DNA of 32,446 nucleotides from Acidobacteria bacterium ADurb.Bin340 (GTDB taxonomy: Bacteria; Acidobacteriota; Holophagae; Holophagales; Holophagaceae): NCBI GenBank assembly GCA_002068835.1, contig MWBB01000006.1, forward strand, positions 1 through 32,446. Reading direction: 5' to 3'. Position numbers and translations under genes: made by a program. Below are positions 3,827 to 32,348 of this stretch, piece after piece. Numbering within the stretch: position 1 is the first letter of the stretch; every line of letters starts with the position of its first letter. Under the pieces are notes generated by a model that saw nothing but the letters and a program-made list of their open reading frames with translations, made no database searches and was not told the DNA's origin.

Positions 3827-4579
3827 TCAGGGCATGAGCATGCCGCCGTTCACGGAGATGGTGCAGCCGCTGATGTAGCCGGCCTCTTCGGTGGCCAGGA
3901 AGCTCACGGCGGCGGCGATGTCCTCGGGGGTGCCCATGCGGCCCAGGGGGATCTGGCGGTTGAACTCGGCTTTCACCTCATCGCTCAGCTTGTCGGTCAT
4001 GGCGGTGGCGATGTAGCCGGGGGCCACGGCATTGCAGGTGATGTTGCGGCTGGCCAGCTCCCGGGCGGTGGTCTTGGTGAGGCCGATCAGGCCGGCCTTG
4101 GAGCTCACGTAGTTGGCCTGGCCCGCGTTGCCCATCTGGCCCACCACGGAGGCGATGTTGATGATGCGGCCCCAGCGCTGCTTCATCATGGGCTTGGCCA
4201 CGGCCTGGGTGGCCAGGAAGGCGCCCTTCAGGTTGATGTCCATGACCAGATCCCACTCCTCCTCCTTCATCTGGATGAGGAGCTTGTCCTTGGCGATCCC
4301 GGCGTTGTTCACCAGGATGTGCAGCCCGCCGTGGCGCTTCACCACCTCGTCCACCGCCGCGCGGATGCTGTCGCCTTCGGCCATGTTCAGGAGCACGTAG
4401 TCGCCCTTCTGGCCCGCGGCCTGGATGTCGGCCACCACGCGCTTCAGGTCGTCCTCGGTCATGGGCAGGGAAGCGCACACCACCGTGGCCCCCTGGGCGG
4501 CCAGGCGCTTGGCGATGACTTCGCCGATGCCCTGGCTGGCGCCGGTGACGAGGGCGATCTTGCCGTTCAGCTGGAACAT
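3827..4579 (-). CDS. fabG: 3-oxoacyl-[acyl-carrier-protein] reductase
   Basis: NADPH-dependent reduction of 3-oxoacyl-ACP to (R)-3-hydroxyacyl-ACP in fatty-acid elongation; cytoplasmic tetramer of the short-chain dehydrogenase family. The 250-residue product has the usual FabG length. TGASQGIG at 12-19 is the nucleotide-binding glycine motif, NNAG the structural motif, and Ser144, Tyr157 and Lys161 (in NYVSSK) the catalytic set. The end, YISGCTISVNGGMLMP, matches the FabG signature for substrate binding and the tetramer interface. The chosen ATG has a strong AGGAGG site (complement of 4584-4589); the frame stays open upstream but that extension has no homology-like content. A run of eight T lies in the leader just before the ribosome binding site. 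No other fab genes are adjacent, so it may be an extra FabG-type reductase. Confidence 0.9.
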   Translation of the reverse strand: MFQLNGKIALVTGASQGIGEVIAKRLAAQGATVVCASLPMTEDDLKRVVADIQAAGQKGDYVLLNMAEGDSIRAAVDEVVKRHGGLHILVNNAGIAKDKLLIQMKEEEWDLVMDINLKGAFLATQAVAKPMMKQRWGRIINIASVVGQMGNAGQANYVSSKAGLIGLTKTTARELASRNITCNAVAPGYIATAMTDKLSDEVKAEFNRQIPLGRMGTPEDIAAAVSFLATEEAGYISGCTISVNGGMLMP

Positions 4580-4889: not shown

Positions 4890-5903
4890 TTAATTTATCT
4901 GTTTCAGCCAGGTCGCCAGGGGGGTGAGGTCGGCCTGGGGGGTCTCGTCGCTGTAGGCTTCGGTGGCATTGAGGGCGCTGAGGTCCACCCGGGGGCGGGG
5001 TTCCTTTTTCAGGAGGTGGTTGGCGTCCTTCAGGTCGATCACGGTGCCGGGAAAGGTGGGCGGGATCGCGTCCGGCTTGGGGGTCTGCACGTCCTTGTCG
5101 CCCCAGGCGGCGGCCAGGGGCACGGTCACGCGGGCCGCGAGGGGCCAGGGGTCCAGGTCCAGGGTGGCCTTCACGAAGGACAGGCTTTCGGGCTGCATGA
5201 GGCTGCGGCCCAGCATCACCAGGCCCGGGAACACCTGGGGCGATCCGGTCGGCTGGGGCTTGTCCTCCCGCACGGCCTGGAGGACCGAGGCCAGGTAGGC
5301 CAGGTTCGCGGGGGCCTGTTCCGGCGGAAGCTGCGCCCGCACCTGGGCTTCGATGGTCCGGGCCATGGTCTGCCCCGGCAGACCCAGCAGCAGCAGCGCA
5401 TCGGCTCCCTGGGCCGCCAGCAGGCTCAGGAGCGCCCCTTCGCTGTGGCCCACCAGCAGGAGCTTCTTCCCCTTGGCTTCGGGCAGGGTGCGGGCAAAGG
5501 CCAGGGCCGCTTTGAGATCGCCCACCTGGGCATCCAGGCTGATGTCCAGCTTGGGATCCTTGGAGCCGATGAAACGCTTGTCCCACCGCAGGCTGCCCAG
5601 GCCCTGGGAGGCCAGCCAGGCCGCCAGGTCCCGCCCCCCGTGGCTGGGAAGGCGCTGGCCCGTGCGGGGATCCCGGATGAGGGGGTTGGACCAGTCCCGG
5701 TCCGTGGGGCCGCTGCCCGCCATGAGCACGGCGAAATATCCGTGGCCCTGGGCGGCCCGCACGCTGCCCTTGAGGGGGAAACCGTTGAAGCCCGGGAAGG
5801 AGGCCTCGCGGTTCTCCGGCGATGGCGAGGCAGCGGGGGCCGGCGGTGGCGCGGGCGCCGTATGGACCAGGGCGGGCAGCAGAAGCAGGGGCAGCAGGGA
5901 CAT
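4890..5903 (-). CDS. Exported alpha/beta hydrolase
   Basis: A 337-residue secreted or periplasmic serine hydrolase. Residues 1-15 are a short hydrophobic signal peptide (MSLLPLLLLPALVHT), followed by a Pro/Ala-rich linker to about residue 29. The core has the MAGSGPTDRDW motif (61-71), typical of the dienelactone-hydrolase/S9-like exported hydrolases that also contain SLRWDKR. The nucleophile elbow is VGHSEGA with Ser154, the acid Asp269 or 271 in WGDKD, and the base His296 in DANHLLK. The reaction is unknown; relatives are esterases or peptidase-like. A GGAGG site (5908-5912 complement) supports the ATG. The gene is divergent from the C69 dipeptidase, sharing a 125-base control region. Confidence 0.88.
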   Translation of the reverse strand: MSLLPLLLLPALVHTAPAPPPAPAASPSPENREASFPGFNGFPLKGSVRAAQGHGYFAVLMAGSGPTDRDWSNPLIRDPRTGQRLPSHGGRDLAAWLASQGLGSLRWDKRFIGSKDPKLDISLDAQVGDLKAALAFARTLPEAKGKKLLLVGHSEGALLSLLAAQGADALLLLGLPGQTMARTIEAQVRAQLPPEQAPANLAYLASVLQAVREDKPQPTGSPQVFPGLVMLGRSLMQPESLSFVKATLDLDPWPLAARVTVPLAAAWGDKDVQTPKPDAIPPTFPGTVIDLKDANHLLKKEPRPRVDLSALNATEAYSDETPQADLTPLATWLKQIN

Positions 5904-31338: not shown

Positions 31339-31866
31339 ATGGATCGAACTGCCCCCCGGGATTTCATCCGCGTGGACGCCTCGGCCATCCACGGCCTCGG
31401 TGTGTTCGCGAAGCGCGACATCCCCAAAGGCACCCGGGTGATCGCCTACACGGGGGAACGGACGACCCGGGCGCGACTGGTGGAGGAGGCCCGCACCCGG
31501 GGCCGGGACCTCACCTACGTGCTCCATGTGGATGAGGGTCACGTCATCGATGGGGCGGTGGGCGGCAACGAAGCCCGCTTCGTGAATCACGCCTGTGCGC
31601 CCAACTGCGAGATCTACGTCTTTGACGGGGTTCCCTACCTCTATGCCCGCGAGGACATTCCTCCCGGGGCGGAACTGACCTTCGATTACCAGCTCCAATC
31701 CATGGCGCGTGAACGCCTGTCGCTCCGCCTGGCCCGCCTGCGCCATCCCTGCACCTGCGGATCCCCTGATTGCCGGGGGACCCTGCTTTCCGCCGAGGCC
31801 CTCCGACCCCGGTTCTACCGACACACACGGGGCCTCAGCCCCAAAGTTTTCCAGGGGGAACCATGA
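31339..31866 (+). CDS. SET-domain protein lysine methyltransferase
   Basis: A 175-residue bacterial SET-domain protein, a class of S-adenosylmethionine-dependent lysine methyltransferases more familiar from eukaryotic chromatin enzymes. The N-terminal GLGVFAKRDIPKGTRV motif (19-34), the cofactor-pocket motif NHACAPNC (83-90) and the terminal tyrosine motif FDY (115-117) are intact. A post-SET zinc cluster follows: Cys138, Cys140 and Cys145 (HPCTCGSPDC), completed by Cys90. The target is unknown; relatives in Bacteria methylate ribosomal, histone-like or host proteins. I use ATG 31339, five bases after AGGA, over ATG 31318, though the latter is possible. The stop overlaps the start of the next gene as ATGA, so the two are translationally coupled. 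Confidence 0.88.
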   Translation: MDRTAPRDFIRVDASAIHGLGVFAKRDIPKGTRVIAYTGERTTRARLVEEARTRGRDLTYVLHVDEGHVIDGAVGGNEARFVNHACAPNCEIYVFDGVPYLYAREDIPPGAELTFDYQLQSMARERLSLRLARLRHPCTCGSPDCRGTLLSAEALRPRFYRHTRGLSPKVFQGEP

Positions 31867-32348
31867 CCCGCACCCTTCGCCTCACGCCCCGCCAGATGGC
31901 CATCCTCGCCGCGGGCTTCACCCTGGCGACCCAGGGCCTGGGCCTGTCCGCCGCGCCTCCCGCCCAGGCGCCCGCAGGCAAAACGAAACCCCAATCGCCC
32001 GCCTTCAAGTACGCGGGGAAGTTCATCAAGTTCAAAGGCCAACTCACGGTCGCAGGACTGCTCAACGGTTCGCCCGTGTTCCGGAACGCCCGGGGCGAGT
32101 GCTTCCGTGTGGAAGCCGGCACCGGCGACCTGAAGTTCCTGGATCCCGCATCCCTGGGACAGGCCAAGGCGGGCGCCACCCAGCGATCCTCGGCGGTCAT
32201 GGGGAAGTTCATCAAGTGGGACAAGCCCGGCGCCGGAAGCCGCGTGAGCATCCTGGGCCTGGACGACCAGGGCCGCGTCATCCAGGAAAATGCCCGCGGC
32301 GAGCGGTTCTACCTCGATCCGAACGGCGACATGGTGTTCGTGAAGTAG
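31863..32348 (+). CDS. Secreted protein with two tandem repeats
   Basis: A 161-residue protein that I do not recognise. Residues 1-31 are a Sec signal peptide (MTRTLRLTPRQMAILAAG, cleavage near LSAAPP). A Pro/Ala/Lys linker follows. The rest is two copies of a unit of about 50 residues: the first starts KYAGKFIKFKG and contains VFRNARGECF; the second starts VMGKFIKW and contains VIQENARGERF. Shared features are GKFIK[FW] and NARGE-x-F, then a strand ending LKFL or MVFVK. The lysines are not shared at every position. Its start overlaps the SET-gene stop by four bases (ATGA) with AGGGGG at 31853-31858. It could be a substrate or partner of the methyltransferase, but an exported protein would need to be modified before export. 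Confidence 0.8.
   Translation: MTRTLRLTPRQMAILAAGFTLATQGLGLSAAPPAQAPAGKTKPQSPAFKYAGKFIKFKGQLTVAGLLNGSPVFRNARGECFRVEAGTGDLKFLDPASLGQAKAGATQRSSAVMGKFIKWDKPGAGSRVSILGLDDQGRVIQENARGERFYLDPNGDMVFVK

Follow-up and report, generated by a model that had tools for sequence, protein, structure and literature searches.

Bacteria are known to methylate lysines of proteins that they export. In Acinetobacter sp. Tol 5, KmtA methylates many lysines of the cell's own exported surface protein AtaA, as PKMT1 and PKMT2 of Rickettsia do on OmpB (PMC11784438, in the part of that paper available to us), and in Salmonella, the exported flagellin is lysine-methylated by FliB through a [4Fe-4S]-mediated reaction rather than by a SET domain (PMC8598068, likewise available in part). 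KmtA and PKMT1/2 are OM PKMTs, a family different from the SET-type enzymes, and the term "SET domain" goes unmentioned in the accessible text of the KmtA paper (PMC11784438); as far as these texts show, none of these methylators of exported proteins is a SET enzyme. For SET enzymes of free-living bacteria, few physiological substrates have been established, and in our reading the part of a 2014 review that we could consult presents these enzymes as acting on chromatin, be it of a host or of archaea (PMC3980110). According to the same part of the review, Go1-SET from Methanosarcina mazei is a prokaryotic SET enzyme that acts in vitro on a protein of its own cell, MC1-α, which binds DNA as part of that cell's chromatin and is not exported (PMC3980110).

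Here, we describe a two-gene locus in which a SET-type enzyme is encoded beside a small, putatively exported protein that we call SEC. We think it reasonably probable, from comparative sequence analysis, that the two form a self-contained cassette in which the enzyme is dedicated to one substrate, the exported SEC. Such a cassette would resemble KmtA-AtaA, PKMT1/2-OmpB, and FliB-flagellin in that a bacterial enzyme would modify an exported protein of its own cell. It would differ from the OM PKMT systems in its enzyme family and in its substrate: theirs are large outer-membrane proteins, whereas SEC has about 160 residues and is encoded adjacent to the enzyme gene. Moreover, no sequence consensus was found for KmtA (PMC11784438, in its accessible part), whereas SEC, which judging by its sequence appears exported and multi-lysine, has a lysine motif.

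The window, by which we mean the whole 32,446-nucleotide stretch of DNA analyzed, is contig C6 of a 2.8-Mb assembly whose relatives are Holophagaceae (Acidobacteriota). The two-gene unit sits at its right end, with both genes on the + strand. The upstream gene (31339..31866; ATG at 31339, stop at 31864-31866) encodes a SET-domain protein lysine methyltransferase of 175 aa, an assignment resting on Pfam, on the closest solved structures, and on the orthologs found 5′ of SEC in relatives. The initial annotation had called it a short SET methyltransferase with an intact post-SET cluster, and we agree. The protein matched the Pfam SET family PF00856 with 76.5 bits (cut-off 22.4), and its SET core (31393..31692, +) has all four motifs, GxG, YxG, RFxNHxCxPN, and ELxFDY, as HGLG at residue 18, YTG at 37, RFVNHACAPNC at 80, and ELTFDY at 112. 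The post-SET cysteine cluster CTCGSPDC follows at residue 138 (31750..31773, +) and, together with C86 of the core, presumably forms the Zn site expected for the family. The only other Pfam match above cut-off was SAF, over 13 residues (21.5 bits against 21). Besides SET, Pfam matched the protein to no methyltransferase family, and this family-level comparison did not place it among the OM PKMTs.

The closest solved relatives of the window SET are the SET domains of KMT2A, ASH1L, and NSD2, the alignment covering both the SET and the post-SET region through its cysteines. These are histone enzymes and parts of large proteins, whereas the window SET is a stand-alone protein beside a putatively exported partner; it also has Phe at the Phe/Tyr switch position, where KMT2A has Tyr. 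This kinship with histone methyltransferases could mean that the SET is an effector directed at eukaryotic chromatin, like those of Legionella and Chlamydia, and SEC an accessory, the more so as its sole NCBIfam match was the T4SS effector AnkI/LegAS4. That match, however, reached only 38.1 bits against an equivalog cut-off of 550 and covered only part of the SET region, no signal peptide or other secretion signal was apparent in the SET, and the carriers of the pair include named Geothrix isolates, which are free-living. We therefore consider an effector role highly improbable.

Across the 15 paired SETs, the motif residues are mostly invariant or nearly so, the exception being the SET of the Holophagaceae metagenome-assembled genome (MAG) G033 (L044 6264-6704), which has neither the YxG stretch nor one of the post-SET cysteines and may be decaying or misassembled. 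The Phe of ELxFDY, at the switch position, is kept in 15/15. At this position, Phe is associated with the addition of several methyl groups and Tyr with that of fewer, a rule to which Set1 shows that exceptions exist (PMC3585878, available in part). Because this Phe is invariant, we infer that the enzyme is a di- or trimethyltransferase.

SET genes had also been described as scarce in bacteria. This stands for the well-known genomes that we used as controls, only one of 14 having a SET domain above the Pfam cut-off, but not for the family to which the relatives belong, in which 18 of 77 genomes have one, nor for bacteria at large, since more than 500 bacterial genomes with SET had already been counted in the 2014 review (PMC3980110, available in part). 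In the genome of the window, no second SET gene was found.

SEC (31863..32348, +; ATG at 31863, stop ending at 32348) has 161 aa. Its first segment (31863..31970, +) reads as a putative Sec signal peptide followed by the start of a linker, with an uncertain cleavage point; this agrees with the annotated signal peptide and was judged by eye from a basic start and a hydrophobic stretch followed by A-x-A or A-Q, cleavage-like sites that the aligned homologs also show. Downstream lie a conserved lysine, K49 (32007..32009, +), and two repeats, which were delimited by their mutual alignment and by lysine conservation. Repeat 1 (32016..32144, +) runs through GKFIKF (residue 52), NARGECF (75), and TGDLKF and contains K56, whereas repeat 2 (32202..32345, +) runs through GKFIKW (114), NARGERF (143), and GDMVFVK and contains K118 in FIKW and K161 in the C-terminal FVK. 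The repeat structure first read from the shared GKFIK[FW] and NARGE-x-F is borne out by a local alignment of the two halves, whose score of 52 was matched by none of 2000 shuffles, the best of which came close at 50.

Searches of SEC against Pfam, NCBIfam, PHROGs, PADLOC, and the PDB returned no family above cut-off; as judged by these libraries, from which it is absent, SEC is a new protein family. The best match, to PBCV_basic_adap in the Verrucomicrobia SEC (L057), was rejected, as it fell below cut-off (19.6 against 20.4 bits) and spanned 17 residues only. Two AlphaFold2 models of modest quality (mean pLDDT 59.4 and 62.7) both predict two beta units of about four strands each. With either model, Foldseek found nothing in the PDB at E ≤ 0.001, and weak matches to the beta-propellers BamB and YxaL were set aside as meaningless at such scores.

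A SEC gene is present in 11 of the 77 Holophagaceae genomes searched, with two copies in one of them, G015. In all 11, a SET ortholog lies directly upstream on the same strand. Strong SET matches (E ≤ 2.4e-30) came from 12 Holophagaceae genomes, of which only G018 is without SEC. Beyond the family, five genomes yielded SEC, one of Verrucomicrobia and four of Bacteroidota, and SET directly precedes it in these as well: the order is SET then SEC in the Verrucomicrobia locus L057 (43 nt between the genes) and in the Bacteroidota loci L058 (37 nt), L070, and L071, and at L059, where the contig start falls inside SET, the SET C terminus is kept just 5′ of SEC. A scan of 84,980 species genomes gave 12 SEC loci. 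Nine of these are from Holophagaceae, including Geothrix campi, Geothrix oryzisoli, Geothrix paludis, and Geothrix terrae, and the other three are from MAGs, one of Verrucomicrobia and two of Bacteroidetes. A profile search of 395 Bacteroidota genomes gave SEC in the genome of L058 and in two more. Among 396 Acidobacteriota genomes, the eight with SEC were all Holophagaceae. In 393 genomes of the order of L058, 387 genomes of the phylum of the Verrucomicrobia MAG, and eight genomes of the family of G1434, SEC was present only in the genome from which each search had started. SEC was found by profile or by seed patterns, so these counts may miss diverged members. The open-licence literature yielded nothing in print on a SET-SEC pairing.

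Altogether, SET adjoins SEC at 16 of the 17 SEC loci, over three phyla, and order and strand are kept across these phyla at SEC identities to the window protein of 33 to 36%. The repeat-start lysine K56 is likewise conserved in the homologs, being Lys in 17/17 aligned SECs, and K49 is Lys in 16/17, with a gap in the remaining one, in an alignment whose most distant rows are gapped around both positions. The initial annotation had proposed a shared function for the two genes and had named separation of the genes in relatives, or loss of these lysines, as observations that would speak against it; because neither was seen, a shared function is strongly supported. The one unpaired SEC is the second copy in G015, a genome with a complete pair elsewhere, and a short stretch resembling the end of a SET gene remains at its locus, as though SET had been lost there. 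This copy (L035 5552-6061, contig 32, the same as L054) has kept all five lysine motifs.

The manner in which the two genes adjoin is less constant than their order. In the window, they overlap by a shared ATGA (SEC start at 31863, end of the SET stop at 31866), as annotated. The Holophagaceae relatives, however, have gaps of 26 to 31 nt at nine loci, with a GGAGG-like site 5′ of SEC, and of 96 nt in G033, and the overlap is therefore particular to the window genome. For the same reason, we set aside translational coupling as an explanation of the pairing. Seven Holophagaceae loci have the SET stop codon in the loop of a hairpin-like GCCGCA-loop-TGCGGC sequence (L034 3767-3785 and the corresponding positions in L036, L038, L039, L040, L041, and L043), which may be a regulatory RNA element; the same sequence lies 5′ of the SEC copy without SET (L035, near 5510-5528), and the window is without it. 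At L058, a small ORF (4073-4453), whose product is rich in lysine and begins like a signal peptide, ends just 5′ of SET.

The lysines of SEC recur in a hydrophobic setting. With the pattern [FYWHILVTM][ILVMF]K and then either [FWYILM] or the C terminus, the 17 SECs, their mature parts cut by a simple A-Q/A-K rule, had 66 Lys versions and no Arg version, counts that, as the copies are homologous, describe a pattern at about five positions and not 66 independent events. In 22 other window proteins, which were ORFs picked by hand, the same motif occurred in three Lys and 21 Arg versions. Twelve SEC representatives below 70% identity had 43 Lys and 0 Arg sites, a count on which we put no weight in the form of Fisher p-values, since these take homologous sites for independent ones. 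Thirteen mature SECs had 51 sites against a shuffle mean of 3.3 and a maximum of 11. There are up to five copies per SEC, three of them in the window protein, and in the Geothrix SEC at L051 five of the seven lysines of the mature part lie in the motif. A C-terminal lysine is present in 16/17 SECs; the SEC of the Bacteroidota genome G1430 ends in Arg, which led us to reject the view that a lysine is always needed there. The second model puts the motifs around residues 13-22 and 65-92 mostly in segments of pLDDT below 50 that flank the two beta units. The N-terminal and inter-repeat motif segments are predicted to be mostly flexible, although the low pLDDT at the motifs may reflect a shallow alignment (13 rows). 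As a sequence pattern, Lys and never Arg favors methylation of the SEC lysines.

Pairing nevertheless demonstrates a shared function and not that SEC is the substrate. The SET could methylate another cytoplasmic protein, while SEC, itself unmethylated, would serve the same pathway, for instance by binding or sensing something after export, and would owe its conserved lysines to ligand binding or strand packing. A structural role is indeed conceivable for K56 and for the C-terminal lysine, FVK lying in a predicted strand, and MC1-α, a known prokaryotic SET substrate, is a cytoplasmic DNA-binding protein (PMC3980110, available in part). Against this stand the rarity of the Lys motif in the other window proteins and the lack of Arg at its sites in SEC, as well as the gene context: at L037, the Geothrix locus examined, the pair sits between two genes on the opposite strand, so there is no third gene in the operon. 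We take these flanking genes to encode a DUF900-like hydrolase and a patatin-like lipoprotein. On balance, a different cytoplasmic substrate seems to us unlikely, though it is the alternative that we take most seriously.

SET and SEC have been inherited together. Their pairwise distances correlate (r = 0.895 over 15 pairs, a value that none of 5000 label shuffles attained), and their trees agree. Both trees place G033 together with G100 (Verrucomicrobia) and G1430 (Bacteroidota) (support 0.920 for SET and 0.896 for SEC), an apparent movement of the pair between phyla as a unit, although the G033 contig could be contamination in a MAG that is 76% complete. With midpoint rooting, the SET tree separates the 15 paired SETs from 16 unpaired ones (support 0.873), the latter taken from 36 loci (7/8 bacterial and 9/28 viral). 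Stand-alone SET genes of another branch are found in G018 (L045 9330-9782) and G059 (L047 411-812), and 28 viral-contig loci (L074-L101) encode relatives of the paired SET; SEC is absent from the DNA examined at all of these.

A patchy distribution, with 11/77 genomes in Holophagaceae and few elsewhere, and the apparent transfer between phyla would also suit a mobile or selfish unit whose two genes travel together without a direct functional link. Yet a tblastn search of plasmids and phages with one SEC query (L058) gave no match, the viral contigs searched contained no SEC, and the conserved order and strand at this SEC identity speak against such a unit. Several Geothrix, moreover, share a syntenic chromosomal location for the pair. 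In G060, the corresponding location retains no more than the SET start and scraps of the SEC end, from which we conclude that a deletion removed most of both genes there. A unit without a functional link is thus improbable in our estimation.

Under the cassette reading that we prefer, the SET would stay in the cytoplasm and methylate lysines of newly made SEC, probably to the di- or trimethyl state, at repeated hydrophobic motifs of the form [FYHT][ILMV]K[FWYILM] in the flexible N-terminal and inter-repeat segments. SEC would then be exported through Sec, and its methyl-lysines would alter the binding, folding, or protease resistance of this small beta-rich protein outside the cytoplasm. Methylation before export fits the sequences, as the SET has no apparent signal peptide and SEC has an apparent one. 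Several observations weigh against the cassette: a lysine flanked by hydrophobic residues also fits an amphipathic beta strand, the Verrucomicrobia SEC keeps one motif copy and that at L050 two, one G015 copy has no adjoining SET, and the paired SET of G033 is incomplete.

This could be the first case of a SET enzyme dedicated to methylating an exported bacterial protein, in a cassette that moves horizontally and whose substrate has a readable recognition motif in flexible segments, a reading to which we give even odds. In either case, a conserved neighbor with a lysine motif is a concrete candidate substrate for a bacterial SET enzyme, and it is present in named Geothrix strains. If the cassette reading is true, the enzymes that methylate lysines of bacterial exported proteins would no longer be limited to OM PKMTs and FliB, and a sequence motif would be available where the KmtA study, in its accessible part, reported none (PMC11784438). 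A SET enzyme would then be writing marks on a protein that goes on to work outside the cytoplasm.
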